This document shows positions 10,049 through 58,200 of a stretch of 64,000 bases of DNA, in pieces; within the stretch, counting starts at the first letter, position 1, and every line of letters starts with the position of its first letter. The notes under the pieces were generated by a model, which did not search any database, was not told where the DNA came from, and saw only the letters and a program-made list of their open reading frames with translations. A program made the translations under genes and the position numbers. The stretch is from an uncultured Anaerolineae bacterium (lineage in GTDB: Bacteria > Chloroflexota > Anaerolineae > Anaerolineales > Villigracilaceae): the NCBI GenBank assembly GCA_903875215.1, contig CAIQVH010000016.1, positions 248,001 to 312,000 on the forward strand. Direction: 5' to 3'.

Positions 10049-10414
10049 ATGAGCCTGATCCTTTTTGTTTTGCATGACCCTGAAAAATTGCGGGAAGTGC
10101 TGGCGGCCTGGGAGGCCTGCGGCATCAACGGGGCGACGGTGCTGTTCAATACGGGCATTGGGCGCATCCGCGATGAAGAAGGGCTGCGGGATGATCTGCC
10201 GTTGATGCCTTCGCTGAGTGATTTCTTTTCACATCCGGATCACCACGGGCGGACGATTTTTACCATTCTTGATGATGACAGCCTGATCCCGGGGCTGGTA
10301 TCGGCGACGGAGCAGGTGGTCGGCGCTCTGAACCTGCCCGGGCATGGGATTTTGGCGGTGTTGCCTGTCAGTCAGGTGTATGGGTTGATTAAACGGCCGG
10401 CGGGTGGCGGGTAG
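10049..10414 (+). CDS. P-II-like (GlnB-fold) small protein, probable antiporter regulator
   Basis: A 121-residue protein starting MSLILFVLHDPEKLREVLAAW, which resembles the first beta strand and helix of P-II-like proteins. GINGATVLFNTGIGRI follows, where P-II proteins have a T-loop region, but here it is short. The C-terminal half (HGILAVLPVSQVYGL) gives a further strand. AGGAG lies eight bases before the ATG at 10049. P-II-like proteins act as trimers that bind nucleotides and modulate transporters. Location directly behind the antiporter supports a role in gating it; this is inference. Confidence 0.65.
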   Translation: MSLILFVLHDPEKLREVLAAWEACGINGATVLFNTGIGRIRDEEGLRDDLPLMPSLSDFFSHPDHHGRTIFTILDDDSLIPGLVSATEQVVGALNLPGHGILAVLPVSQVYGLIKRPAGGG

Positions 10415-10481
10415 GCGGGTGTTTTTTCTGCGGGGCTGATGGTTTTTCTTTTCGTTACAAAAAAAAAGAGACGAATGTCAT

Positions 10482-10510
10482 TTGTGCCCGGTTTGGGTTG
10501 GTGCTACACT
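10482..10510 (+). promoter_or_regulatory. Promoter of the radical SAM cassette
   Basis: TTGTGC at 10482-10487 and an extended -10, TGC followed by TACACT at 10505-10510, are separated by exactly 17 bp. They lie about 30 bp before the ATG of the zinc-ribbon membrane protein and would drive the four-gene cassette. Confidence 0.55.
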
Positions 10511-10540
10511 GGGATTTGGCATTACATTACGGAGGTTGTG

Positions 10541-10939
10541 ATGGGAAAAACTGTTGCGTTCATCGGTGCGGGTGTGTTGTTTTTGATCGGGCTGTGCCTG
10601 CTGGCCTATGGGGCGTTGAATGTGGTCGGTTCCACCTCGGCGCAGGGTAATTCGAACTGGCTGATCTTTGGGCTGGGGTTTGCCTGCGCGGGGTTGGTGT
10701 TCTTTGCTGGAGGCGCGGGGCTGATTTGGATGGGCCTGCGCGGCCAGAAGACCGAAGTGGTGCAGCAGGTTACGATGAAGGTGGATTTGCCGGGTGAGAC
10801 GAATGTCAGCCAGATGAAATGCCAGTCGTGCGGCGGGGCGATCACGTCGAAGGATATTCAGGTGATGGCCGGCGCGCCAGTGGTGACCTGTCCGTATTGC
10901 CAGGCAACCTATCAACTGACCGAGGAACCCAAGTGGTGA
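10541..10939 (+). CDS. Two-span membrane protein with C-terminal zinc ribbon
   Basis: A 132-residue protein of unknown function. Two hydrophobic helices occupy roughly residues 4-27 and 38-65. A basic linker follows, then a cytoplasmic C-terminus with CQSCGG and, 20 residues later, CPYCQA. These two CxxC knuckles form a rubredoxin-like zinc ribbon. GGAGG sits six bases before the ATG at 10541, which decides the start; the open frame extends further upstream. It is the first gene of a four-gene plus-strand run that ends with two radical SAM-type proteins, so it may be a partner of the tail-bearing membrane protein. Confidence 0.7.
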   Translation: MGKTVAFIGAGVLFLIGLCLLAYGALNVVGSTSAQGNSNWLIFGLGFACAGLVFFAGGAGLIWMGLRGQKTEVVQQVTMKVDLPGETNVSQMKCQSCGGAITSKDIQVMAGAPVVTCPYCQATYQLTEEPKW

Positions 10940-10956
10940 TGAGCAGGAGGATTGCC

Positions 10957-12618
10957 ATGAAAGCCAGGATTTTCTCTTTTTTACTGGTCTGTGCCCTGGC
11001 GTTTGGCCTGACGACCAACGCGTTGGCGCAGACGTATTCCTTCCAATTAACGAAGGAAGTGGTGCACGTATATTGGAATGGGGATGGAACGATTGCGATT
11101 GATTATCAGTTCACGTTTCGCAATAAGGTCTCGGCGGATGCGATAGATTTTGTGGATGTGGGCCTTCCGAATAGGTTTTTCTCGTTGGGCGGCATCACGG
11201 CTGATGTGAATGGCAAGCCAGTCAGTGTGACCAGCGATTATCAGGGCCAGGGTTCTGCGGGTGTGGCGGTGGAATTGGGCGGGCAGGCCATCCGGCCGGG
11301 GAAATCGGGTGTGGTGCATGTCTTTATCGCGCGTGTTGACCAGATGTACTATCCCGATAGTTCGGATGAAGCCTACGCCAGCGGGGAGTTTTCTCCGACC
11401 TGGTTTGGCTCGAACTTTGTGGACGGCACGACTGATTTGAGCGTGACTTTTCACCTGCCGCCTGGCGTCAGGCCCGAAGAGCCGCGCTACCATGCCGCGG
11501 GTGGTGGCTGGCCGGGGGCTGGTGCGCCTGAAATCGGCCTCGATGCTGACGGGCGGGTGACCTATACCTGGCAGTCTGTGGCAGCCAACGGTTTCACCCA
11601 GTACACCTTCGGAGCTTCTTACCCGGCTGCCTACCTTCCTGCCGAGGCGATCGTACGCACCACTTTTGTGGATCTGATTATTGGCGGTATCGCCTCGCTT
11701 TTCACAACCCTGGCTGGCATCCTGCCGTTTTGCTGTTTCGGCGGCATCATCTTCGGCATGCCGATCCTGGGAGCGATCAACGAACATAAACGTAAAAAAC
11801 AATACCTGCCGCCGAAGATTTCCATCGAGGGCCATGGCATCAAACGCGGTCTGACAGCTGTCGAAGCGGCGATTCTGATGGGTCAGCCGCTCGAAAAAGT
11901 AATGACGATGATCCTGTTTGGTGTGGTCAAAAAAGAAGCCGCACAAGTGGCCACCCGCGACCCGCTCGAATTGCAGATTGCGGCCACCTTGCCTGCTGGC
12001 CTGCGTGAATATGAAACGGATTTCCTCGAAGCCATGCGGCAAAAAAGTCCCGCTCAGCGCAAGCCTGCCCTGTCTGCCATGACGGTTAGATTAATCAAAA
12101 ACGTCACCGAAAAAATGAAAGGCTTCAGCACGAAAGAGACGGTGGAGTATTACAAAGCCATCAACGAGAAGGCCTGGAAGCAGATCGAAGCGGCGGGAAC
12201 GCCGGAAGTGAAAAGCCAAATGCTCGAAGAAGCGCTTGAATGGACCATGCTTGACAAGGAATATGATGACCGCGCCCGGCGCACGTTCACCGGCCCAATT
12301 TTTGTGCCGACCTGGTGGGGACGCTACGACCCGGTTTACCGCCATTCACACCCCACCTTCAGCTCGGTACCCACTTCGACGGGGATGCCAGGCTCGGGCA
12401 GCGGGCGCAGCGCGCTCCCCGGCGCTGACTTCGCCGCCTCCGTCGTCACTGGCACCCAGACGTTTGCCCAAAAAATCCTCGGCGGCGACTTTACCCAGGG
12501 CGTTTCGCAGATTACCAACCCGGCGCCTGTCTCCACCCGCAGCGGCAGTTCTGGCGGCGGAGGGTGTGCCTGCGCCTGTGCGGGTTGCGCCTGCGCCTGC
12601 GCGGGTGGGGGCCGCTAA
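10957..12618 (+). CDS. Exported membrane protein with Cys-Ala repeat C-terminal tail, DUF2207-like layout
   Basis: A 553-residue protein not firmly recognised. Residues 1-25 are a signal peptide (cleavage near ALAQ). Residues 25-220 look like an extracellular beta domain. One or two membrane helices span about 225-270 (IIGGIASLFTTLAGILPFCC). A basic, helix-rich cytoplasmic part follows. The last residues are a Gly-rich linker and CACACAGCACACA, which holds six Cys alternating with Ala or Gly, then GGGR. The layout resembles YciQ-type DUF2207 proteins, which often end in Gly/Ser repeats. AGGAGG fixes the start at 10957. Two radical SAM-type genes follow, so the tail may be a modification target. 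Confidence 0.7.
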   Translation: MKARIFSFLLVCALAFGLTTNALAQTYSFQLTKEVVHVYWNGDGTIAIDYQFTFRNKVSADAIDFVDVGLPNRFFSLGGITADVNGKPVSVTSDYQGQGSAGVAVELGGQAIRPGKSGVVHVFIARVDQMYYPDSSDEAYASGEFSPTWFGSNFVDGTTDLSVTFHLPPGVRPEEPRYHAAGGGWPGAGAPEIGLDADGRVTYTWQSVAANGFTQYTFGASYPAAYLPAEAIVRTTFVDLIIGGIASLFTTLAGILPFCCFGGIIFGMPILGAINEHKRKKQYLPPKISIEGHGIKRGLTAVEAAILMGQPLEKVMTMILFGVVKKEAAQVATRDPLELQIAATLPAGLREYETDFLEAMRQKSPAQRKPALSAMTVRLIKNVTEKMKGFSTKETVEYYKAINEKAWKQIEAAGTPEVKSQMLEEALEWTMLDKEYDDRARRTFTGPIFVPTWWGRYDPVYRHSHPTFSSVPTSTGMPGSGSGRSALPGADFAASVVTGTQTFAQKILGGDFTQGVSQITNPAPVSTRSGSSGGGGCACACAGCACACAGGGR

Positions 12619-12648
12619 ATTTCGTTCCATGGAAAAAAGGCCAGTTTA

Positions 12649-14004
12649 ATGGGTATTCTTTCAGGATGGTTTGGACAAAAAGCGGCCAGTGTCTCGCCTG
12701 GAGTCAGCCTGTTCCACTATCGTTTGGACGAAAATGGCGAACAGGCCCGCATTCACCTGCGACTGGATGCAGAGGGTAGCGGGACATTGATTGTCAACGC
12801 TAACCGCATCATGCATCTCAACCCCACCGCGGCCTGGCTGGCGAAACGGCTTCTGGATCGTCAGGCCGATGACGAAATTGTGCGGGCCATGATGAAAACC
12901 TGGCAGGTAAAGCCGGCGATGGCCCGTCGCGACCTGTCCGCTTTCCGCTCTCAACTGGCAGAGCTGATTCGTCCGGATGGCGCCTGCCCGATCCACGAGC
13001 TGGATTTGGAGACGGTCGCGCCGTTCAGCGCGCGCCCCTCGGCGCCGTACCGGCTTGACCTGGCCTTGACCTACCGCTGCAACAATGACTGTCCGCACTG
13101 TTACAATGCCCGTGAACGCACCTTCCCCGAGCTTTCCACTGTTCAGTGGAAGCAGGTCATTGATCGGGCCTGGGCGCTGGGGATTCCGCATATCCTCTTC
13201 ACCGGTGGCGAGCCGACGTTGCGCGAGGATCTGCCCGAGCTGGTGGCGCATGCCGAGGCCAATGGTCAGATTACCGGGTTAAATACCAATGCCAGGCGGC
13301 TGGCGGATGTCAACTTTGTGAAACGGTTGGTGGAGGCGGGGCTGGATCATGTCCAGGTAACGGTGGAATCCAACGATCCCGACATCCACAACAGGATGGT
13401 GAACGCGCGGGCTTTTGAGCAGACTGTGCGCGGGCTGAAAAATGCCCTGGCGACGCGCCTGTTCGTGATGACGAATACCACCATGCTGCGCGATAACGTC
13501 GCCAGCCTGCCCGAGACGCTTGATTTTCTGGCCGGGCTGGGTGTGCAGACGGTCGGTCTGAATGCGCTGATTTATTCCGGGCACGGGGCCACGGTGGGCA
13601 CCGGCCTGCCCGAGCGTGAGCTGGCTCCGCTGCTCGACCTGGCCCGTGAAAAGACCGCCGCGCATGGTCAGCGGCTGATCTGGTACACGCCGACGCAGTA
13701 TTGCCACTTTGACCCGGTACAAATGGAATTGGGGGTGAAGGGCTGTACGGCGGCGCAGTATAACCTGTGTGTTGAACCGAATGGCGACGTTTTGCCTTGC
13801 CAGTCTTTTTACCAGCCGATCGGCAACCTCCTGCGCGATGATTGGGCGGCAATCTGGAACCATCCCCTGGCGCTGCGTCTGCGCGAACGCCAGGACCTGC
13901 CGCTGAAATGTGAAGGCTGCGCGCTGCTGGCAGAGTGCGGCGGCGGCTGTCCGCTCCAGTTCCCGTTGGAGACATTGAAGGTTTTGAATTCGACCGCCGG
14001 CTGA
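12649..14004 (+). CDS. Radical SAM/SPASM protein with PqqD-like N-terminal domain
   Basis: A 451-residue protein. Residues ~45-110 resemble a PqqD/RRE-type peptide-recognition domain (IMHLNPTAAWLAKRLL). The radical SAM core follows with CNNDCPHC, giving cluster ligands Cys144, Cys148 and Cys151, and FTGGEPTLRED for SAM binding. A C-terminal SPASM-like region has Cys366, 374, 384, 421, 424, 430 and 434 for auxiliary iron-sulfur clusters. This is the architecture of peptide-modifying enzymes that form thioether or carbon-carbon bonds. The start at 12649 has only a weak ribosome site. The likely substrate is the Cys-rich tail encoded 30 bp upstream; this is inference. Confidence 0.85.
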   Translation: MGILSGWFGQKAASVSPGVSLFHYRLDENGEQARIHLRLDAEGSGTLIVNANRIMHLNPTAAWLAKRLLDRQADDEIVRAMMKTWQVKPAMARRDLSAFRSQLAELIRPDGACPIHELDLETVAPFSARPSAPYRLDLALTYRCNNDCPHCYNARERTFPELSTVQWKQVIDRAWALGIPHILFTGGEPTLREDLPELVAHAEANGQITGLNTNARRLADVNFVKRLVEAGLDHVQVTVESNDPDIHNRMVNARAFEQTVRGLKNALATRLFVMTNTTMLRDNVASLPETLDFLAGLGVQTVGLNALIYSGHGATVGTGLPERELAPLLDLAREKTAAHGQRLIWYTPTQYCHFDPVQMELGVKGCTAAQYNLCVEPNGDVLPCQSFYQPIGNLLRDDWAAIWNHPLALRLRERQDLPLKCEGCALLAECGGGCPLQFPLETLKVLNSTAG

Positions 14005-14042
14005 ATCTTTCAGCCGGCAGCCTGGAATTTATTGGAGGAACC

Positions 14043-15197
14043 ATGTCACTCTTGGACCGACTTACCGCTCTGTTCAGCCCCGTCAAATCCCTGCCGGCCG
14101 GCGTGCATCACTACCAGTCGCCGCCGCAGGATAAGGCTCCCTACCGCCTGCATCTGCGCCTGCAGCCAGATGGCAGCGGCGTGCTGGTACTCAACGCCAG
14201 CACCGTCCTGCATCTTAACGCCAGCGCCGCCGAATATGCCTTTCACTTTATCCGTGGCGCGGCCCCCGATCAGGCCGCCCGCGAAATCGCCGGGCGTTAC
14301 CGCATCAGCCGCGCCCGGGCGCGCAAAGATTACCTCGATTTTATTGACAGACTCGAGACGCTGATCCACACCCCCGATCTGGATCCCGTTTCCTATCTCG
14401 ACTTTGACCGCGTTTCTCCCAACACCGCCGCGCTGACCGCCCCGCTGCGGCTGGATTGTGCCCTGACGTATCGCCTGCCTCCCGGCGCTGATCCGCTCAA
14501 CGCCCCCGAAAAACGCGTCGAACGCGAACTGACCACCGATGAATGGCGCCGCCTGCTGGATAAAGCCTGGGCCGCCGGCATTCCACACATCGTCTTCACC
14601 GGCGGCGAAGCCACCCTGCGTGAAGACCTGCCCGCCCTGGTTGCCCACGCCGAAAAAAATGGCCAGGTGGCCGGCCTATTGACCGACGGGCACAAATTGA
14701 CCGACCTGGCCTACCTGGATACCCTGCTGCAAACCGGTCTCGACCACCTGATGATCGTCTTGCCCTCGGAGGGCGAACCTGGCTGGTCTGCCATCCAAAA
14801 TGCCGTGGCGGCAGATATTTTCCTCTCCGTGCATCTGACGGTGACCCCGCGCAACGCCAGTTTTGCCCCGGCCTTGCTCGAAAAACTTGCCCGGCTGGGT
14901 GTGGTCTCGCTCTCATTGAGCATCAGCGAACCCAGTTTGATCACCGAGCTCTCCCGCTTGCGCGATCAGGCCGCGGATCTTGGCTTGCGCCTCGTCTCTG
15001 ACCTGCCCGTGCCATATTCCAGCGCCAATCCGGCCAGCCTCGAAACTGTCGAAGATGCTGAACCAGCCGGAGCCGGTAAAGCCTGGCTGTATGTCGAACC
15101 CGATGGTGATGTGCTTCCCGCCCAGGAACTCCCCGGGCAAATTTTGGGCAACCTGCTGCGGGATGAGTGGAGCAAGATCTATTCATCCGCCGCCTGA
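14043..15197 (+). CDS. Radical SAM-like pseudoenzyme lacking all cluster cysteines
   Basis: A 384-residue paralogue of the preceding protein. It keeps the PqqD-like N-terminal region (VLHLNASAAEYAFHFI) and the core fold landmark FTGGEATLREDLP. Where the active enzyme has CNNDCPHC, this one has LPPGADPL at residues 145-152, and the SPASM cysteines are gone (VEPDGDVLPAQ in place of VEPNGDVLPCQ). It ends before the last cysteine-rich segment. The only Cys is residue 139. It cannot hold the radical SAM cluster. GGAGG precedes the ATG at 14043. The intact frame suggests a structural or substrate-binding partner rather than decay. Confidence 0.8.
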   Translation: MSLLDRLTALFSPVKSLPAGVHHYQSPPQDKAPYRLHLRLQPDGSGVLVLNASTVLHLNASAAEYAFHFIRGAAPDQAAREIAGRYRISRARARKDYLDFIDRLETLIHTPDLDPVSYLDFDRVSPNTAALTAPLRLDCALTYRLPPGADPLNAPEKRVERELTTDEWRRLLDKAWAAGIPHIVFTGGEATLREDLPALVAHAEKNGQVAGLLTDGHKLTDLAYLDTLLQTGLDHLMIVLPSEGEPGWSAIQNAVAADIFLSVHLTVTPRNASFAPALLEKLARLGVVSLSLSISEPSLITELSRLRDQAADLGLRLVSDLPVPYSSANPASLETVEDAEPAGAGKAWLYVEPDGDVLPAQELPGQILGNLLRDEWSKIYSSAA

Positions 15198-15217
15198 ACA
15201 GCGCCAAAGCCAGGAAA

Positions 15218-15257
15218 ACACTCCAGCGCGGGAGAATATTCTCCCGCGCTGGAGTGT
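15218..15257. repeat. Perfect 40-bp palindrome
   Basis: Two 20-nt arms meet with no spacer: the left arm runs 15218-15237 (begins ACACTCCAGC) and the right arm 15238-15257 (ends GCTGGAGTGT). It lies 20 bp after the pseudoenzyme stop, and its last base is the first base of the TATAAT before the NUDIX gene. It could end transcripts of the upstream cassette or act as an operator. No T-tract follows on the plus strand. Confidence 0.85.
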
Positions 15258-15262
15258 ATAAT
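15257..15262 (+). promoter_or_regulatory. -10 hexamer TATAAT, possible leaderless NUDIX transcript
   Basis: A perfect TATAAT ends six bases before the NUDIX ATG, which would place transcription start at or next to the start codon. Its -35 region lies inside the 40-bp palindrome. Confidence 0.5.
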
Positions 15263-15268
15263 GGGGCC

Positions 15269-15709
15269 ATGTTTCGCGCCCGTGCCATTATTGTTCGCAA
15301 CCGCCATATCGCGCTGATTAAACGTCAGCGCGATGGGCGCGTTTACTACGTCATCCCCGGCGGCGGTATGGAGCCCGGCGAAACGCCCGAACAAACCGCC
15401 ATCCGCGAGACGCGCGAAGAACTTGGGCTGGCCGTCACCATTGAACGGCTGCTGGCCCGGGTGGTGTTTCGTGGCAAGGCGCAATACTATTACCTGTCGC
15501 GCGTCATTGGCGGGCATTTTGGCACCGGCAAAGGCCCCGAAATGACCGGAAAATACCCCCCCGAACGCGGCACATACACCCCCGTCTGGATTCCACTCAA
15601 CGGCATTGAACAAATAGACCTGTTCCCGCCCCAAATCGCCGAGCTTCTTAGCCAGGTATCCCGGCAGGGCTGGCCGGTTGAGCCGGTTGAATATAATATC
15701 GAAGACTGA
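15269..15709 (+). CDS. NUDIX hydrolase
   Basis: A 146-residue protein with a complete Nudix box. It reads GGMEPGETPEQTAIRETREE followed by LGL, which fits GX5EX7REUXEEXGU and places the metal-binding glutamates. The N-terminal strands (RARAIIVRNRHIALIKRQRD) are typical of MutT-like proteins. These enzymes cleave nucleoside diphosphates linked to another group; the substrate cannot be read from sequence. I chose the ATG at 15269, where the family fold begins; no ribosome site is visible, but a -10 hexamer lies six bases upstream, consistent with leaderless translation. Confidence 0.88.
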   Translation: MFRARAIIVRNRHIALIKRQRDGRVYYVIPGGGMEPGETPEQTAIRETREELGLAVTIERLLARVVFRGKAQYYYLSRVIGGHFGTGKGPEMTGKYPPERGTYTPVWIPLNGIEQIDLFPPQIAELLSQVSRQGWPVEPVEYNIED

Positions 15710-15727: not shown

Positions 15728-16825
15728 ATGAAAAAATGGATGCCCTGGTGCCTGTTTCTTTTGCTGGCACTTTCCACGCTGGCCTGTAAAACCGTTACCC
15801 AGGCCGTATTCCAGCCGACCAGCACCCCATTCCCAACCAATACCCCCGCGCCGACCAGGATCCCGCCGCCCAGCGACACCCCCACCCCGCTCCCTTCCCC
15901 CACCGTCACGCCGGATGCCTGCCTCAATGGCGACTGCATTACCTCCTGTCTCGATGCGCTCGATTCAATCGTCAAGACAGGCATCGGCGAGGGCCAGCTG
16001 CGCACATCCATGCGCAACAAAGCCCCCGCGCTTGATGATACAGAAATAGACCTGGCGACCTACCCCGTGGTTGGCGACAAGCTGGGCGACCCGGTTTTTG
16101 GGTCCAACGTCCCACAAAAATTACGCCCCCTGCAAGAAGACCGCCGCACCCACGAACAAATCTGGGATTACTTTACCGCCATCATTCCCGCCGAACAACG
16201 CACCGAGCTGGTTGAATACAACGTCTTTACCGATGGCGAAGACAATCTCCTCGCGGCGGTGTACCAATCCGAAACCTCCGCGCAGCAATGGGTTTTACAG
16301 GTCGATATTAAAGATTCCAGGAACCCACAAGATCTGACCTACACCCTGGTGCACGAATTCGCCCATCTGCTGTCACTCAATTCAAAACAGGTGCCTCCTT
16401 CCCTGCCGATTTTCAATCACCCGGAAGATGAATATCTCTATGAAGCGGAAGTCAATAAATGCCCCAACTATTTCCCCGGCGAGGGCTGTAGTAATCCCGA
16501 TTCTTACATCAACCAATTTTTCAACCAATTCTGGGGCGAGATTTTCACGGAATGGGATAATTTGAATTACATCGAGGATGATGACGTCTACTACGACGCG
16601 CTCGACAAGTTTTACAACAAATATGCCGATCAATTCGTCACCGATTATGCCGCCACCGATCCGGCGGAAGACTTCGCTGAAACATTTTCCTACTTTATCC
16701 TGCAACCCCAGCCGGCAGGGGATACCGTTGCTGAGCAAAAGATCCTCTTCTTCTACACCTACCCCGAACTGGTGCGCCTGCGCACCCAAATGGGCAAAAA
16801 CCTGTGCGCCCGGATTGAAAAATAA
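15728..16825 (+). CDS. Lipoprotein with Pro/Thr linker and HExxH metallopeptidase-like domain
   Basis: A 365-residue protein. A signal sequence ends in ALSTLACK, a slightly unusual lipobox. Residues ~30-62 are a Pro/Thr/Ser-rich spacer common in Anaerolineae surface proteins. The exported domain has LVHEFAHLLSL, an HExxH zinc motif, and about 115 residues later DPAEDFAETFSYF, where a Glu could be the third ligand as in gluzincins. Several Cys could form disulfides. It is probably a zinc protease anchored outside the membrane, but I do not recognise the family. It starts 18 bp after the NUDIX gene with TGAGGAG upstream. Confidence 0.7.
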   Translation: MKKWMPWCLFLLLALSTLACKTVTQAVFQPTSTPFPTNTPAPTRIPPPSDTPTPLPSPTVTPDACLNGDCITSCLDALDSIVKTGIGEGQLRTSMRNKAPALDDTEIDLATYPVVGDKLGDPVFGSNVPQKLRPLQEDRRTHEQIWDYFTAIIPAEQRTELVEYNVFTDGEDNLLAAVYQSETSAQQWVLQVDIKDSRNPQDLTYTLVHEFAHLLSLNSKQVPPSLPIFNHPEDEYLYEAEVNKCPNYFPGEGCSNPDSYINQFFNQFWGEIFTEWDNLNYIEDDDVYYDALDKFYNKYADQFVTDYAATDPAEDFAETFSYFILQPQPAGDTVAEQKILFFYTYPELVRLRTQMGKNLCARIEK

Positions 16826-17582: not shown

Positions 17583-18119
17583 TTAGGGTTGGGGCGTGGC
17601 GCTTGCTTTGAGCGTACGCAGGTAGTTGACCACATCCCAGCGGTCGCGCACGGTCAGGTTTTCATTCAGAGCGGGCATGTGGATCTGACCGTCCGCGCCG
17701 AGAATGCCATTTGAGATGCTCAGGAACAAAGCCCCGTCAGGTTTGCTCTGGACGACTTCGCTGGTCAGGTTGGCGGGCGGGAAGACCAGTGCGCCGCCGA
17801 CCACGCCATTGCCATCGGCATTCGGGCCGTGACATTGGATGCAGGTGATGCTGTAAAGCACACGCCCACGTTCCACCGAGATGGCATCCGATTGAATTGG
17901 GTTGACTGGCGCACCCTGCCCGGCGATGTAGGCGGCGCCCTCGATTGGGATCGAGCGGGCGGCTACGGGTAGAGGGTGTTCCATGGCGCGGTAGGATGGT
18001 TGGATTTCCATGAAGGAGATCCAGTTAATCTTGATGATGTCATAGGAAAAAATCATCAAAACACCCAGCAGCAGGGCGGCGGCGGCAAGTACCACCAATA
18101 GTCGTTGAGTAAAACTCAT
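17583..18119 (-). CDS. actE: ActE, monoheme cytochrome c subunit of alternative complex III
   Basis: A 178-residue protein with an N-terminal membrane helix and a cytochrome c domain. SITCIQCHGPNADGNG is the heme-binding CxxCH with the usual following Gly. HMPALNENLTVRDRWDVVNYL carries the distal Met ligand and the C-terminal helix. It is the subunit expected to accept electrons from the ActA/ActB module. The ATG at 18119 overlaps the actD stop as ATGA, which decides the start and suggests coupled translation. Confidence 0.85.
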   Translation of the reverse strand: MSFTQRLLVVLAAAALLLGVLMIFSYDIIKINWISFMEIQPSYRAMEHPLPVAARSIPIEGAAYIAGQGAPVNPIQSDAISVERGRVLYSITCIQCHGPNADGNGVVGGALVFPPANLTSEVVQSKPDGALFLSISNGILGADGQIHMPALNENLTVRDRWDVVNYLRTLKASATPQP

Positions 18120-18640
18120 AGGGTCTGTGCCTCCGCATGTTTGACTGATTCGGCGCCGAGGGCGGTCATGGCCGATTCGATGGCGACTTCCTGCGCGGGG
18201 TCGCATTCGATCAGGATGGCGATGCGCCCGTCGCTGATTTCTGGGACATATTCTTTGGGGGTGTAGGATGGAAACCGGCTGTCGAGAAAAACGCCGACGA
18301 AGGTGCTGATCAACATTCCGAGCATGGTCAGCTCAAAGAGCACCACCACGCTGGGCGGGCCGGGGATGACTGGCTGGCCGCCCACGTTGAGCGGGTAGGT
18401 GGTTGGGGTGACGAAGGCCAGGTAGGCGCCGAGCAGGAATCCACCGAGCGCGCCGCCCAGTGCCAGGCGCGGGACGTTGGTCCACTGGTGTGGGCGGCCC
18501 ATCATCGCTTCGGTGATCGGGATGCCGGAGATAACGTTCAGGTGTTCGTCGCCCAGGCCCAGTTCGCGCAGTTTTTCTACTGCATGTGCGGCTGGGTCGA
18601 GGTCGGAAAATACGGCAAGAAGCATATTTTTATCAGTCAT
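18116..18640 (-). CDS. actD: ActD, membrane subunit of alternative complex III (DUF3341)
   Basis: A 174-residue protein. An N-terminal ~50-residue soluble part (LLAVFSDLDPAAHAVEKL) precedes two hydrophobic helices at ~55-80 and ~98-120 and a C-terminal part ending in a ferredoxin-like strand (RIAILIECDPAQEVAIESAM). This is the ActD/DUF3341 layout found in every ACIII cluster. GGAGG precedes the ATG. Its start is 54 bp after actC, and its stop overlaps actE. Confidence 0.88.
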   Translation of the reverse strand: MTDKNMLLAVFSDLDPAAHAVEKLRELGLGDEHLNVISGIPITEAMMGRPHQWTNVPRLALGGALGGFLLGAYLAFVTPTTYPLNVGGQPVIPGPPSVVVLFELTMLGMLISTFVGVFLDSRFPSYTPKEYVPEISDGRIAILIECDPAQEVAIESAMTALGAESVKHAEAQTL

Positions 18641-18654
18641 AGTTCATTCCTCCC

Positions 18655-18677
18655 CCCTCTCCCAATTGGGGAGAGGG
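18655..18677. repeat. GC-rich hairpin between actC and actD
   Basis: CCCTCTCCC and GGGAGAGGG form a nine-bp stem around AATTG. It lies in the 54-bp gap inside the operon. It may protect or attenuate mRNA, or be a dispersed intergenic repeat. No T-tract is present. Confidence 0.6.
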
Positions 18678-18694
18678 GCAGGGGGTGAGGGGGT

Positions 18695-20137
18695 TTATTC
18701 CAAATCACTTACCGTCACGACGGTTTCTTTGCCAAATTTGCGCAGGCTGTGGGCCATCTGGCCTTCCTGTACTTCCCAGACGGGTACGAGCGGGATGAGG
18801 CGCGAGGCGAGCATGTAGAGCAGGATGAAGAAGGAAATCGTGCCGATGGTGAGGGGGATCTCGACGCCGGGTTTATAGAACTGGTATGTGAAGGGGAAGC
18901 GGTTGATGCTTAGGGAGGTGGGGACGATGATATATCGTTCAAACCACATTGCGATGTTGACCAGCAGGCCGACGGTGAACAGCAGGGTTGGGTTGCGGCG
19001 CCAGTTTTTGTTCCACAGCGTCAGCCAGGGCACAGCGACGTTGAAGATCAGCATGGCGTACCACATCCAGCCGAGCGGGCCTTCCTCGTGGAAGTGCAAG
19101 AGGGCATCGGTCCATTTGTCGCCGTTGTACCATTGCACCATGTAGTCGTTGAAGAAGAAATAAGCCCATGACATGGAGATGATCAGCATCAGTTTGCCGA
19201 GCCCGTCGAGGTGTTCGGGGCGGATGAAGTATTTCATGTTCTTCATTGTGGCGCGGACGACGATTAGCACCATGGCGACTGCCGAAAGACCGGATTGCAA
19301 CGCACCGATGACGAAGTAGGGGCCAAAGATGGTCGAGCTCCAGCCGGGGCGCATGGCGGCGGCGAAGTCCCACGAGACGATGGTGTGGACGGAGAACATG
19401 ACCGGCAGGATGGCAAAGGCGAACAGGTTCATGGCGAAGCGCAGGTGGGTCCACTCGCCTTCGGTGCCGCGGAAGCCGAGCGCCAGGATGCGGTAAAGGG
19501 TTTTGCGCCAGCCGGTCGAGCGGTCGCGCGCCATGGCCAGGTCGGGAATGAGCGGCAGGAACAGGTACATGGTGCTCGAAAGCAGGTAGGTATTGATGGC
19601 CAGGAAGTCCCAGGCCAGTGGCGAATGGAAGTTGGGCCACAACCCACGCTGGTTGGGGTAGGGCGCCAGCCAGTAGGAAAGCCAGACGCGGCCCATGTGC
19701 ATGAAAATGCTCAGGCCGGCTTGTACCAGGCCAAAGGTCGTCATCAGTTCGGCAGCGCGGGTGAAGGGGCGGCGGAATTCCGCCTTGAAGACGCGCAGCA
19801 GGGCCGAGACAAACGTCCCGGCGTGGCTGATGCCGATCCAGAAGACGGTGTTGACCAGGAAAATCCCCCAGTAGATGGGACGATTCACCCCGGCCACGCC
19901 CAGACCATTGGCGATCATGTAGCCCCAGTAATAGAACAGGCAAACCGCCACCAGGATGGCCATGATGCCAGCCGCCACCCAGAACTTCCAGCTGGTGGTC
20001 TGCATCGATTCCATTACCATTGCATTCATTTCGCCGCGCGGACGCGGATCGAGCATCAGATGTTCTTCTCGCAGGTGCGCTTCGTGATCCTGCTCGCTGG
20101 TGTGCGCATGGGTTGCGGAATTAGCCAAGACGGCCAT
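18695..20137 (-). CDS. actC: ActC, NrfD/PsrC-like quinone-binding membrane subunit of ACIII
   Basis: A 480-residue polytopic protein with about ten membrane helices, of the NrfD family. Features include FLVNTVFWIGISHAGTFVSA near the second helix, a region typical of the quinol site, and a conserved HTIVSWDFAAAMRPGWSSTI. It oxidises menaquinol and passes electrons to ActB. The start at 20137 has a strong GAAGGAGGAG site and overlaps the end of actB2 by 17 bases. The related ActF subunit, normally encoded further along, is absent here. Confidence 0.92.
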   Translation of the reverse strand: MAVLANSATHAHTSEQDHEAHLREEHLMLDPRPRGEMNAMVMESMQTTSWKFWVAAGIMAILVAVCLFYYWGYMIANGLGVAGVNRPIYWGIFLVNTVFWIGISHAGTFVSALLRVFKAEFRRPFTRAAELMTTFGLVQAGLSIFMHMGRVWLSYWLAPYPNQRGLWPNFHSPLAWDFLAINTYLLSSTMYLFLPLIPDLAMARDRSTGWRKTLYRILALGFRGTEGEWTHLRFAMNLFAFAILPVMFSVHTIVSWDFAAAMRPGWSSTIFGPYFVIGALQSGLSAVAMVLIVVRATMKNMKYFIRPEHLDGLGKLMLIISMSWAYFFFNDYMVQWYNGDKWTDALLHFHEEGPLGWMWYAMLIFNVAVPWLTLWNKNWRRNPTLLFTVGLLVNIAMWFERYIIVPTSLSINRFPFTYQFYKPGVEIPLTIGTISFFILLYMLASRLIPLVPVWEVQEGQMAHSLRKFGKETVVTVSDLE

Positions 20138-20876
20138 AGTCTTTCTCCTCCTTCAGATACGTCACACGTGGCAGAGTACCAAGATCCTCGAACAATTGAG
20201 AGCCGCGCCCGGTCTTGGCCAGCTTGCTCACCCGGCTTTCAGGGTCATCCAGGCGGCCAAAAATGATAGCGTCTGCCGGGCAGGCCTGCGCGCAGGCGGG
20301 CTGCATCTCGCCATCCAGCACCTCGCGGCCCTCAGACTTGGCCTGATCTTCGACTTTGTGAATCCGCTGGATGCAGAACGTGCACTTTTCCATAATGCCG
20401 CGCCGGCGCACCGTCACATCCGGGTTCAACTGATTGGACAGTGGCTCGGGACGGTCATAATCGCGCATGTTGAAGACCCGCGCCACATAGGGGCAGTTAT
20501 TCGCGCAGTAACGCGTACCCACGCAGCGGTTATAAACCTGCAAATTCAAATCCTGCGCCTGGCTGTGCACCGAGGCAAACACCGGGCAAACCGGCTCGCA
20601 GGGCGCATTGCCGCACTGCTGGCAGAGCACCGGCTGGAACCCGCTGGTCTGCACCTCCGGGAACTCACCCTCGAAAGCATGCTCAATCCGCAGCCAGTGC
20701 AGCGAGCGGCCATACCCGGCATCGGTTTCACCCACAAAAGCGATATTATTTTCCATCGCGCAGGCCGCCACACACGCCTGGCAGCCCGTGCAAAGGTCTT
20801 GATCGATCGCCATGCCCCAGATCCCGGTCGTGTTTTCCAAATCCGCTTTCACTTCAGGAATATTATGCTTCGCCAT
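20121..20876 (-). CDS. actB2: ActB2, ferredoxin-like iron-sulfur subunit of ACIII
   Basis: A 251-residue protein with several 4Fe-4S cysteine motifs: CTGCQACVAAC, CQQCGNAPCEPVC, CVGTRYCANNC and CTFCIQRIHKVEDQ followed by CAQACP. This is the DMSO-reductase-type ferredoxin subunit, which in many ACIII complexes is fused to the molybdopterin-like half of ActB. Here it is a separate gene, starting 9 bp after actB1. It relays electrons between quinol-oxidising ActC and the cytochrome subunits. Confidence 0.9.
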   Translation of the reverse strand: MAKHNIPEVKADLENTTGIWGMAIDQDLCTGCQACVAACAMENNIAFVGETDAGYGRSLHWLRIEHAFEGEFPEVQTSGFQPVLCQQCGNAPCEPVCPVFASVHSQAQDLNLQVYNRCVGTRYCANNCPYVARVFNMRDYDRPEPLSNQLNPDVTVRRRGIMEKCTFCIQRIHKVEDQAKSEGREVLDGEMQPACAQACPADAIIFGRLDDPESRVSKLAKTGRGSQLFEDLGTLPRVTYLKEEKDYGRLG

Positions 20877-20885
20877 TCTCTACCT

Positions 20886-23057
20886 TTACCCTTTATTCTC
20901 AGCCGCTTCCAGGCGTGTTCGGCCTTCCAGGCGCGAAAGCGGGCGTTTCTTTCCGGTTTTTTCGATTTTGACTTTCACACCCGCGAACGCCAGGTCGCCA
21001 GCGGCATTGATCTGTGCTCCAAGCAGTTTCCCGGGATTTGCCCCCCGGTTTTCGGCATACCGACCATAAGCAGTATGCCCCTGCCCGAACGGAATCGCCA
21101 CCACCTCCGGGCGGATGGCCGGCACCTTGTACACCGACACTTCCACCTCCCCGAAGGCAGAACTGACCCGCACCACATCATCATCCGTCAGCCCGAGTTC
21201 CTCCGCAGTGACCGGATTCATTTCCAGCCACGAATTCCACATCACCGTTGTTGTCGGGTCGGGGGTTTCTTGCAGCCAGGGCTTGTTCGCGCCCGCTTCG
21301 GCCAGGATGGGTGACGGGAAGACCAGCAGGTGGAATTCGCCGTCGCCTTCCGGTTGTGCAGCAGCCGGAGTCAGCTTCTTTTCCAGTGCACTGGCCGCGC
21401 TTGGCGTACCCAGGCTGGGATCGTTTTTCCACCAGCCGCCAAACTGCTGGAATTCTGCCCAGAACGAGGGCATATCCGCGGCGTTGAAAAACCCGCCTTC
21501 CGCGCCCACCAGACCGGCCAGCTTGCCCTGGATGAATTCAATCTCATCCTTGAAGGGCAGGGCAGCTGCGGCTTTGCCTCCCGCCACGGCGGCCGCCGCC
21601 AGGAGCACATCTGTTGTGGATTTGGTGTTGTAATAAGGCGCCACCACCGGCTGCGCACCGGAAAGAAGTGTCTGCCCGGTGCCGGCGCTGACTTGCTGGT
21701 ATCCCCAGGATTCAAGCCCCGTATGGTCGGGGAAGACGTAATCGGCCAGGATGGCCGTTTCATCGGGGAAGGAAGCAAGTGAGATGACGGTGGGGACTTT
21801 CGCCAGAGCGGCTTCAAATCCCAGCGAAGTGGGCAGTTCAAAAACCGGGTTGACGCCATGCACGATCAAAGTTTTGATTTTTCCGGAGTTCAGCTTCTCA
21901 ATCAGCGCGCTGATTTCTTTGATACTGGCCGGGCGGCGGTAGGAGTTGGTCAGGGGGGAGGCCGGGCTGTGGTACACGCCGCCGGGTTTCCCGAGGTTGC
22001 CCAACAGGGCGTTCAAACTCAAAATAACCTGGGCGATTTCGAGGCCGTTGGATTGTCCCAGCGCAGCCCCGCCCGGGATGACCAGCGGATTTTGGGCCTG
22101 GGCCAGGATCGTGGCGTACCGTTCCAGGGTTTCCAGGGGCAGACCGGCGGCATCGGCGGCCTGTGCTACATCTACTGCTTCAAATAAGGCCGGCGCAGAC
22201 CCAAATTTTTGTTCGGCAACCAGCTTGCCGAGCGCAGCGGCAACCAGCTCTTCGGTGCCTGGTAGAATTGCCGCCCATTCATCCGCTTTCATGGCCGTTT
22301 GCGACATGCGCGCCTCAAATTGAACCAGGTAACCGCGCCGATTGGTGCCGCGGCGCATTTGCGCAAAGCCGCGCGTGTACGCCACCGGCGAGATCCAGGT
22401 TTCCAGGAAGTTGGCGCCAAAAGAGAAGGTTACATCGGCGTTGCCCAGGTCAAAGAAGAGCAGGTCGGGTTTGCCAAAGACGATACGGGAGGCTTCGCCC
22501 AGCGTGGTACGCGCTTCGAACAGGCTCAGGGCTCCATAACGCAGCGGTGCTGGCGCGCCGATCGCTTTGCACAGATCGGAGACCAGGTCAAACAGATGGT
22601 CTGGAGCCAGCCCGAGCAGGAAGGCCGTTTCGGCGGGATTTTTCAGGGCCTCGGCGACGATTCCGGTGGCGGTATCCCAATCCGTTGTGGAAAAATCCCG
22701 GTCGCCGCGCACATGGCTGGAAGGTTCCTGGATCCGGTCTGGGTTGTAGAGACTGTGCAGGGTGGCCTGCCCACGGGCGCAGGTTTTGCCCAGGTTGACC
22801 GGGTGATATTTGTTCCCTTCCACCTTGATGGCGCGTCCCTGCATGGTGCGGACAACCAACCCGCATCCGGCGGCGCATTCGCGGCAAGTGGTGGCGTAAT
22901 AGGTGCTCTGACCGTTGTAGGTATATTCCGGCATTTTTGTGTACGGTTCGCGTGTGACGTAACGCGAGGCCGGGCCGCAGCCCGTCAGGACTGCGGCGCT
23001 GGCGGCGCCCGTACCAACCAGTTTGAGAAAATCTCGCCGGGAAAGTTGTTCTGTCAT
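20886..23057 (-). CDS. actB1: ActB1, molybdopterin-oxidoreductase-like subunit of ACIII
   Basis: A 723-residue MopB-superfamily protein. It opens with a twin-arginine motif, SRRDFLK, and a possible lipobox, LTGC (Cys27), so it is exported folded and perhaps lipid-anchored. CRECAAGC plus CARG (Cys58, 61, 65, 93) is a complete 4Fe-4S motif of the molybdoenzyme type. As I recall, the B1 half of studied ACIII complexes lacks molybdenum cofactor, so whether this one binds metal is open. AAAGGA lies before the ATG. Gene order with actA and actC fixes its role as the extracytoplasmic large subunit. Confidence 0.88.
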   Translation of the reverse strand: MTEQLSRRDFLKLVGTGAASAAVLTGCGPASRYVTREPYTKMPEYTYNGQSTYYATTCRECAAGCGLVVRTMQGRAIKVEGNKYHPVNLGKTCARGQATLHSLYNPDRIQEPSSHVRGDRDFSTTDWDTATGIVAEALKNPAETAFLLGLAPDHLFDLVSDLCKAIGAPAPLRYGALSLFEARTTLGEASRIVFGKPDLLFFDLGNADVTFSFGANFLETWISPVAYTRGFAQMRRGTNRRGYLVQFEARMSQTAMKADEWAAILPGTEELVAAALGKLVAEQKFGSAPALFEAVDVAQAADAAGLPLETLERYATILAQAQNPLVIPGGAALGQSNGLEIAQVILSLNALLGNLGKPGGVYHSPASPLTNSYRRPASIKEISALIEKLNSGKIKTLIVHGVNPVFELPTSLGFEAALAKVPTVISLASFPDETAILADYVFPDHTGLESWGYQQVSAGTGQTLLSGAQPVVAPYYNTKSTTDVLLAAAAVAGGKAAAALPFKDEIEFIQGKLAGLVGAEGGFFNAADMPSFWAEFQQFGGWWKNDPSLGTPSAASALEKKLTPAAAQPEGDGEFHLLVFPSPILAEAGANKPWLQETPDPTTTVMWNSWLEMNPVTAEELGLTDDDVVRVSSAFGEVEVSVYKVPAIRPEVVAIPFGQGHTAYGRYAENRGANPGKLLGAQINAAGDLAFAGVKVKIEKTGKKRPLSRLEGRTRLEAAENKG

Positions 23058-56906: not shown

Positions 56907-57473
56907 GTGTCCCTCGAGCCTAATCTGCTTCTGCGCCCCATTCCCGAAACCTACTGGGTCCTGCCGGGCCAATTCCTGGCCGGAGAATACCCTGGCACCT
57001 CCTACTTCCCCGAGCAAACCCGCAAACGTCTGAACGCTTTTCTCGACGACGGATTTAACACCTTCTTCGACTTAACCCGCCCCGGAGAAGTGGAGCCGTA
57101 CGATGAACTGCTGCGCGAATCCGCAGCCGAATACGGTCTCCAGGTTCAATATTCCCGCCTGCCAATTGGCGACTTTGGCCTGCCGAGCGTGGCCGAGATG
57201 CAGTACACCCTCGACGCACTCGCCGGGCGGCTGGCCGCTGGCCGAAAGCTCTACCTGCACTGTTACGGAGGCATCGGCCGCACAGGAACGGTCGTGGGCT
57301 GTTACCTGGTGCGGCAGGGCCTGAGTGGCAGCGCCGCGCTGCGCCAGCTGTCCGAATGGTGGCAGACCGTCCCCAAAGCGAGCCGCTTTCCACATTCCCC
57401 CGAAACCCGGCAGCAGGCGCAATTTATTCTCGATTGGGCCGATCACGATGCCGGCAACCAGGGCCATGCCTGA
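56907..57473 (+). CDS. Dual-specificity/tyrosine phosphatase-like protein
   Basis: A 188-residue cysteine phosphatase. HCYGGIGRTG carries the CX5R active site (Cys119, Arg125). An Asp upstream in LPIGDFGLPS is a possible general acid. The N-terminal part (PETYWVLPGQFLAGEYPG) is found in bacterial DSP-like proteins. The start is a GTG at 56907 with a weak ribosome site. It is likely co-transcribed with pilZ. The substrate may be a phosphoprotein, phosphoinositide or other phosphoester. Confidence 0.85.
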   Translation: MSLEPNLLLRPIPETYWVLPGQFLAGEYPGTSYFPEQTRKRLNAFLDDGFNTFFDLTRPGEVEPYDELLRESAAEYGLQVQYSRLPIGDFGLPSVAEMQYTLDALAGRLAAGRKLYLHCYGGIGRTGTVVGCYLVRQGLSGSAALRQLSEWWQTVPKASRFPHSPETRQQAQFILDWADHDAGNQGHA

Positions 57474-58200
57474 CCATGCCCGCTACCGTCAGCAGGCACG
57501 CTGGACGGAAAGCCTGAGATCCTATTTATTCGATAAAACCGGATGGGCTTCTGCCCGACGGGTGCTGGATCTCGGTTGTGGAACGGGTGCCCTGCTCGAG
57601 GCGCTGACCGCTCACCAGGCGCCAACCTGCCACGGAGTGGACCTGAGCCTGGAGGCCCTGGAGCAGGCTGGCCGGCTTGCCCCGCGGGCGCGCCTGTTGT
57701 GTGCCGACGGCGCGGCGCTGCCCTACCCCGCGGCGACTTTTGACCTGGTTTTCTGCCATTTCGTGCTTTTATGGGTGGCGGATCCGCGCGCGGTGCTGGC
57801 TGAAATGCGCCGCGTCACCCGGCCGGGCGGGGCGGTGCTGGCCCTGGCAGAGCCAGATTATGGCGGGCGGATTGATGCGCCTGAGTCATTGGCCGCGCTG
57901 GGGCGTTGGCAGGCTTCGGCTTTGCGGGAGCGTGGTGCCGACCCGCAGATAGGGCGCAAACTGGCCGGGTTGTTTGCCCGGGCTGGGCTGCACAGCGTCG
58001 AAACGGGAGTGCTGGGCGGTGAGTGGTCTCACTCTACGCCCGGGGAATGGGAGCAGGAGTGGGCGGTGTTGGAAGCCGATTTGGCGGGGAAAGTTCCGCT
58101 GGGTGACCTCCACAAATTGAAAGCGCTGGAGGCGGAAGCCCGCCAGCGCGGAGAGCGGGTGCTGTTTGTGCCGACGTTTTTTGCCTGGGGGCGTGTTTAG
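57466..58200 (+). CDS. Class I SAM-dependent methyltransferase
   Basis: A 244-residue methyltransferase. VLDLGCGTGALLEAL is motif I for SAM, GVDLSLEALEQA motif II-like, and FDLVFCHFVLLWVADP plus MRRVTRPGGAVLALAEPD complete the methyltransferase-11 pattern. The target is unknown. I choose the ATG at 57466, which overlaps the end of the phosphatase gene; an ATG at 57448 is also possible. The gene closes the pilZ-phosphatase-methyltransferase run. Confidence 0.85.
   Translation: MPDHARYRQQARWTESLRSYLFDKTGWASARRVLDLGCGTGALLEALTAHQAPTCHGVDLSLEALEQAGRLAPRARLLCADGAALPYPAATFDLVFCHFVLLWVADPRAVLAEMRRVTRPGGAVLALAEPDYGGRIDAPESLAALGRWQASALRERGADPQIGRKLAGLFARAGLHSVETGVLGGEWSHSTPGEWEQEWAVLEADLAGKVPLGDLHKLKALEAEARQRGERVLFVPTFFAWGRV

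Follow-up and report, generated by a model that had tools for sequence, protein, structure and literature searches.

Positions 10541-15197 of the 64,000-nucleotide (nt) stretch analysed here, referred to as the window (contig CAIQVH010000016.1 of the uncultured Anaerolineae bacterium assembly GCA_903875215.1), carry four plus-strand genes separated by gaps of only 17, 30, and 38 nt (Table 1). The second gene encodes a membrane protein that ends in the tail CACACAGCACACAGGGR, with six Cys and an Ala after each, in line with an initial annotation of this DNA that had described Cys alternating with Ala/Gly. As that annotation also held, the third gene encodes a radical S-adenosylmethionine (SAM)/SPASM enzyme with a PqqD-like region (Pfam Radical_SAM, 2.8e-27), and the fourth its cluster-less paralogue, which matches Radical_SAM at 1.8e-9 and lacks both the CxxxCxxC motif and the SPASM Cys. 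Comparison across genomes makes it very probable that the enzyme has this tail as its substrate, and the locus as a whole is probably a post-translational modification system whose target is the C-terminus of a membrane protein of full size.

Table 1. Features of the Cys-tail locus and its proposed unlinked component, in window coordinates (aa, amino acids; ORF, open reading frame).
Feature	Position	Strand	Evidence
Small membrane protein, C-terminal zinc ribbon, 132 aa	10541..10939	+	Weak zinc-ribbon matches; partner gene in types A, B
Tail membrane protein, 553 aa	10957..12618	+	ORF; AlphaFold2 model; no Pfam/NCBIfam family at E≤1
Cys-Ala tail CACACAGCACACAGGGR, proposed enzyme substrate	12565..12615	+	Sequence; invariance; synonymous codon variation
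Radical SAM/SPASM enzyme, N-terminal PqqD-like domain, 451 aa, proposed tail maturase	12649..14004	+	Pfam
PqqD-like domain, residues 49-105, candidate peptide recognition element	12793..12963	+	PF05402, E 8.8e-8
CxxxCxxC (CNNDCPHC), radical SAM 4Fe-4S cluster motif, enzyme residues 141-148	13069..13092	+	Sequence, relatives
SPASM region, seven auxiliary-cluster Cys	13693..13941	+	PF13186, E 1.7e-9; column counts
Cluster-less paralogue, 384 aa, PqqD-like and radical SAM-like regions; proposed non-catalytic partner	14043..15197	+	
Class I SAM-dependent methyltransferase, proposed unlinked component	57448..58200	+	Start codon picked by eye

The initial annotation had suggested a check of co-occurrence, and among 298 genomes of the class the tail protein (E≤1e-6) proved to be confined to genomes with a related enzyme (E≤1e-30): all 71 genomes with the tail protein are among the 79 with an enzyme relative, and none are among the 219 others (Fisher 4e-60, a value that overstates significance since related genomes are not independent). 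These searches were independent of the tail pattern and scored the first candidates per genome, namely five for the enzyme, four for the window tail protein, four for a profile of the CHSAC tail type introduced below, eight for the methyltransferase, and all for the zinc-ribbon protein, so that absence means absence at this depth and E-value. The window protein recovered the tail protein in 54 genomes and the CHSAC-type profile in 49, with 71 in their union. When sorted by us into clades, the tail protein is present in 27/30 A, 12/13 B, and 32/33 C genomes; the tail itself was called in four C-clade genomes (G059, G168, G215, G235) from a profile match running through the last position, and the match stops short of the tail in C-clade G024. 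The enzyme matches of G139 and G220, at 33% identity, were judged to be other radical SAM proteins, and the members of the window's own family and order that lack an enzyme match (G111, G130, G179, G223, G253) have no tail protein either. Thirty loci were fetched by enzyme similarity (L005-L034), and 24 of them carry the tail in their short flank. Three of the remainder (L026, L027, L034) begin at a contig end or close to one. The other three (L029, L031, L032) are f8 genomes with no tail in the flank; in two of these genomes, G100 and G173, the tail and enzyme genes lie on different contigs, and both are kept.

A scan of public genomes with a pattern of eleven tail residues, in which Cys is fixed and Ala or Gly is free elsewhere, returned at least 118 stretches; the pattern preselects neither the final AGGGR, nor a C-terminal position, nor the neighbouring genes. 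Among the stretches listed, 109 of 118 contain a tail ORF. Chloroflexota account for 77 of these and Asgard groups for six, the Asgard hosts being Hodarchaeota, Heimdallarchaeota, Sigynarchaeota, and Promethearchaeota. Other hosts among the matches listed are Fermentibacterota, Planctomycetota, Acidobacteriota, Armatimonadota, Aminicenantes (by title), Coatesbacteria, Edwardsbacteria, Zixibacteria, Hydrogenedentota, Myxococcota, and others. Seven of the nine listed stretches without a tail ORF are apparently unrelated (L045, L058, L068, L090, L108, L114, L123), and the remaining two (L071, L085) have the pattern just 5′ of an enzyme gene near the stretch edge. A catalytic enzyme relative lies within 82 of the 109 tail-bearing stretches listed. 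The initial annotation had named a Cys tail in a genome with no such enzyme gene as the case that would speak against it; when this case was sought by searching the remaining 27 genomes whole, 27/27 gave a match, although in G312 to the cluster-less paralogue only, and in G303, G309, G316, and G324 to an enzyme in pieces. Counted from stop to stop, which makes it a lower bound, the median distance between tail and catalytic ORF is 1 nt for type A (n=97), 0 for type C (n=17), and 1295 for type B (n=5). Two tail-bearing membrane proteins stand in tandem at a single locus in L150, L266, and L267. The named isolates Bellilinea caldifistulae, Ornatilinea apprima, Leptolinea sp., Hungatella hathewayi, and Levilinea saccharolytica carry the system, which makes it directly testable.

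The tail is invariant at 17 of 17 positions across 30 aligned relatives that are 28-63% identical to the window protein (16 rows came from the tail-pattern scan, and the window protein and 13 others were independent of it). The alignment has 24 invariant columns, 17 of which are the tail, whereas the protein body shows a mean top-residue frequency of 46%. At the level of DNA, all codon columns vary synonymously among 114 distinct type A tails, with a mean pairwise difference of 10.1 of the 17 codons. Judged from these comparisons the tail is maintained by selection at the protein level, and a tail arising by chance is ruled out by the codon diversity together with the co-occurrence with the enzyme. 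Two further CACACA-coding matches in the same genome (C36, C38) were considered as extra tails and dropped; no Cys-tailed ORF was flagged there, and a reversed control pattern gave one match.

Relatives of the tail protein carry tails of other types, a wider family that was absent from the initial annotation. Type A tails end in CACACAG-CACACAGGGR, with one or two extra CA ahead in 96 of the 114 distinct tails, and type B tails in CACACAG-CACACACAGGGR, or shorter by one CA. Type C tails consist of CHSAC repeats with near variants, and their adjoining enzymes are 33-41% identical to the window enzyme. Type D was found in Lachnospiraceae, in 15 of 200 genomes of the Hungatella family, with an enzyme relative adjoining in 15/15. 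Its tails are hybrids, for example CVHSSCACASHCACACACACAGGGRAGC plus a short extension; the Lachnospiraceae loci L280-L294 have a conserved GRAGC..KDF/KEF stretch beyond the Cys run. The carrier proteins are homologous throughout (A vs. B, E 4e-134; A vs. C, E 4.8e-34; A vs. D, E 6.9e-32 over the extracytoplasmic domain). The residue before Cys is mostly small, being Ala at 43, Gly at 12, and Ser at 5 of 61 Cys in distinct A tails, and Ala at 149 of 161 in C tails. Beside the CHSAC tails (L161-L169, L224-L230, L244-L260), where a homologous membrane protein mostly adjoins a distinct enzyme clade, recurrent neighbours include another zinc-ribbon protein (8 loci) and, in 13 loci, a protein of about 409 aa that has no match in Pfam.

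On the enzyme tree the tail states A/B/C/D require four changes, a count that omits 20 rows without a tail in their stretch as well as the cluster-less rows, represents D by one row, and scores L159, with the shorter tail CACAGCACACAGGGR, as A. Tail type tracks enzyme clade for the most part. In the same tree the cluster-less relatives are set apart from all catalytic ones by a single change (support 93); it was built with FastTree only, from 178 rows of 215 distinct sequences after short or similar rows were dropped, and it carried long-branch warnings. The two groups also differ by column. The SPASM Cys of the window enzyme are residues 349, 363, 381, 418, 421, 427, and 431, and these seven columns are kept at 99-100% in catalytic A, B, and C relatives, CxxxCxxC being present in 100% of them; in the cluster-less relatives the CxxxCxxC columns have ≤2% Cys and the SPASM columns 0-23%. 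For the PqqD-like domain, the window enzyme scores above the gathering score and gene 4 slightly under the Pfam cut-off (1.5e-4). By sequence the nearest solved structures are PqqE (6c8v, 2.1e-18) and SkfB (6efn, 3.3e-14). PqqE also gives the top NCBIfam score (TIGR02109, 129.9 bits against a cut-off of 381.35); the scores for StsB, the ACGX system TIGR04340, and SkfB are 104.9, 63.9, and 57.1 bits, and none of the best 25 NCBIfam matches reaches its cut-off. At the level of its sequence the window enzyme thus has the features of PqqD-domain radical SAM/SPASM maturases, including an adjoining Cys-rich candidate substrate.

The window tail protein has no Pfam or NCBIfam match at E≤1, TIGR04222 and PF09972 DUF2207 included; by hhalign (99.9%, E 4.8e-34) it is a homologue of the CHSAC-tailed proteins. 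In the AlphaFold2 model (mean predicted local distance difference test, pLDDT, 82.8; below 50 in the tail) a signal-like helix (2-17) is followed by a putative extracytoplasmic beta domain (29-223), a transmembrane helix (237-281), and a helical domain (301-464). A Foldseek search of the PDB matched part of the model to M1 aminopeptidases and oligosaccharyltransferase subunits (E about 1e-7 to 1e-6), with template-modelling scores of 0.21-0.28 of the query that are little informative on function. Lys/Arg counts after and before the last hydrophobic segment show an excess after it in 15/15 C proteins and 22/30 A proteins (3 ties), suggesting that the tail lies in the cytosol.

Two further components recur with the tail. 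Relatives of the zinc-ribbon protein of gene 1 are present in 45 of the loci compared and in 38 of the 298 class genomes (E≤1e-6), comprising 25/30 A genomes, 13/13 B genomes, and no others; in Lachnospiraceae a zinc ribbon is found inside the tail protein itself (10 of 14 aligned). The other component is a methyltransferase 42 kb downstream in the window, likewise absent from the initial annotation, which matches a profile of nine adjoining methyltransferases at E 3.7e-82 (the profile seeds include four scan loci, L044, L121, L125, and L150). At E≤1e-20 it is present in 42 class genomes, that is 30/30 A, 11/13 B, 0/33 C, and 1/222 other (G013), a profile that follows the A/B genomes (Fisher 8e-47). 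Among the 109 tail stretches listed, 50 contain the methyltransferase (E≤1e-45), in 46 cases at most 200 nt from the tail or enzyme ORF, and in L128 (1-1668, minus strand) it is fused to the cluster-less paralogue in a single open frame reaching the stretch end. A free GGGR terminates the tails of types A and B but not those of C and D, and on this basis we tentatively propose that the methyltransferase may act on the A/B tail. Annotation of ten recurrent neighbour groups, rarer neighbours lying outside this survey, revealed no protease and one ABC transporter ATPase (6 loci).

The initial annotation had predicted one promoter common to the four genes, for which a consensus scan gave no support: it found no promoter-like site in 10300-10541, and over 10300-15400 it returned two sites, both intragenic and at shuffle level (shuffle mean 1.8). 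By eye, GGAGG-like sites precede genes 1, 2, and 4, and no obvious one lies upstream of gene 3. Directly 3′ of gene 4 stands a perfect 34-nt inverted repeat (15221-15254) without a T run, also noted by eye, which is not among the predicted terminators. Farther downstream, 15728-16825 encodes a protein with a weak match to putative zinc metallopeptidases (PF15887, 5.8e-6, slightly under the cut-off), and the minus-strand genes of 17583-23057 match cytochrome c, NrfD-like, and molybdopterin oxidoreductase proteins, a set which we take to resemble an alternative complex III cluster.

How the parts might work together can be outlined as follows. Judging from the signal sequence, hydrophobicity, and the model, the tail protein would be inserted into the membrane so that the beta domain faces outward and the C-terminal half, tail included, lies in the cytosol. 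The PqqD-like domain of the enzyme may then hold the segment preceding the tail, which reads FT..VT..TNP.P in the A consensus; the cluster-less paralogue and the zinc-ribbon membrane protein might assist in this. By analogy with the enzyme class, the radical SAM centre and the SPASM clusters would abstract hydrogen within the Ala/Gly/Cys tail, leaving several intramolecular Cys thioether cross-links, a modification to which we give an even chance. In A and B only, the methyltransferase might modify the same tail, which ends in the free GGGR. Such processing would yield a compact module, rich in sulfur and tethered to the membrane, most likely suited to metal or redox work. On balance we favour reading this as an undescribed system, in which dedicated radical SAM enzymes would rebuild a cytosolic Cys tail into a cross-linked, permanent protein cofactor rather than a released peptide. 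Such a system would extend over Chloroflexota, many other bacterial phyla, Lachnospiraceae, and Asgard archaea, each related enzyme clade having its own tail code and A/B tails possibly being methylated too.

That the tail is a substrate, as the initial annotation proposed, draws strong comparative support from the 71/71 pairing, from the link between tail type and clade, and from the retention of both genes across contigs. What the enzyme does to the tail is a separate matter, and SPASM enzymes are known to perform varied chemistry. It might act on the tail without forming thioethers: it could make C-C or C-N cross-links of the PqqE type, oxidise Cys, epimerise residues, or excise a small cofactor. 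The rank of PqqE as nearest solved structure and as top NCBIfam score, far below cut-off as that score is, fits such chemistry, and the methyltransferase partner of A and B suggests additional steps. However, PqqE acts on Glu and Tyr, all the tails are Cys-rich with small residues before Cys, which is the usual look of thioether substrates, and the neighbour groups include no protease; we regard non-thioether chemistry as rather unlikely.

Alternatively, the tail could be an unmodified binder of metal or Fe-S, from which the enzyme draws metal, a cluster, or electrons, or the enzyme could act elsewhere altogether. A cluster of six or more Cys would be able to bind Cu(I), Zn, or Fe-S, and a zinc-ribbon protein is among the partners. 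Against this, the Ala residues and the terminal GGGR show the same invariance as the Cys, beyond what metal binding needs, and the tail sequence largely co-varies with the enzyme clade. The gaps of 17-38 nt also leave no room for a peptide gene, and a separate precursor between the window genes was rejected on this ground. We regard the unmodified tail as an improbable explanation. A further view would take the tail as a low-complexity sequence that slippage or mobile DNA has propagated, with its adjacency to the enzyme an accident of operon structure. The DNA is repetitive, and the data are rich in metagenome-assembled genomes with possible hidden errors; against this, the codons have diversified synonymously, the pairs are kept when the genes lie on different contigs, the tail spans many phyla and Asgard archaea, and the co-occurrence counts contradict such an origin, so that we consider it extremely improbable.

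Several observations weigh against the modification of the tail as we propose it, in addition to the shared ancestry of the genomes counted. The tail chemistry is extrapolated from the enzyme class, and with a Cys spacing of two residues conventional sactionine rings are hard to draw for every Cys. The pairing has gaps on the enzyme side: a catalytic enzyme was seen without the tail protein in G005, G006, G128, G157, and G225, the gene lying at a contig end in G006, G157, and G225 and on a 3.5-kb contig in G128, with neither circumstance in G005. G192 shows only the cluster-less gene, and G013 shows the methyltransferase only (locus L300, neither enzyme nor tail protein found). At four loci with an A-type tail (L052, L062, L151, L237) the nearby catalytic enzyme is of the B clade and on the opposite strand, while the cluster-less gene adjoins the tail, a pattern suggesting that tail and cluster-less protein belong together and that the catalytic enzyme is exchangeable. 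The membrane topology is a prediction; B proteins obey the charge rule in 7/15 cases (6 ties), 17/30 A proteins have two hydrophobic segments beyond residue 120, and a periplasmic tail was predicted for TIGR04222 proteins in a published report (PMC12452194).

A tail kept letter for letter from bacteria to Asgard archaea points to a shared cellular role and not to an antibiotic or signal. If the proposal holds, the tail would represent a built-in sulfur-based module, radical SAM chemistry would gain a new class of substrate, and the matched pairs of enzyme and tail would allow rules of specificity to be read. Among the open PMC papers listed, none reports, judging by title and start of abstract, such a tail paired with a radical SAM enzyme.

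The nearest published idea that we found is the proposal in PMC12452194 that TIGR04222 membrane proteins with Cys-rich C-termini are substrates of multinuclear non-heme iron-dependent oxidative enzymes (MNIO, DUF692). Both systems comprise a large membrane protein with an extracytoplasmic domain, a C-terminus rich in Cys and in Gly/Ser, and an adjoining gene for a peptide-modifying metalloenzyme. They differ in that the enzyme here is of the radical SAM/SPASM class, the tail here has a fixed sequence, and the tail is predicted to be cytosolic here and periplasmic there; in the main text of that paper, "radical SAM" occurs just in two reference titles (PMC12452194). The families themselves touch, since the CHSAC-tailed relative L162 passes the gathering score of PF09972 DUF2207 (25.2 vs. 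24.4) and also matches NCBIfam TIGR04222 below its cut-off (31.8 vs. 43 bits). An MNIO enzyme as the modifier of the present tail was considered and set aside: the same genome has no PF05114 match, and 2 of 14 control genomes do.

Known radical SAM/SPASM peptide maturases target mainly short precursors. In place of the short precursor with leader and core that characterizes ribosomally synthesized and post-translationally modified peptides (RiPPs), the partner here is a 553-aa membrane protein. The ACGX system (TIGR04340) also comprises a radical SAM/SPASM enzyme, whose partner is a short peptide with Ala-Cys repeats by name, and most Cys here are likewise preceded by Ala; however, a CHSAC-clade enzyme scores 94.8 bits and the window enzyme 63.9, both far under the 400-bit cut-off. 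With the sactipeptide and ranthipeptide maturases, SkfB among them, the window enzyme shares the domain order, the seven SPASM Cys, and an adjoining Cys-rich candidate substrate, but that candidate is the end of a membrane protein of about 550 residues and not a short precursor.

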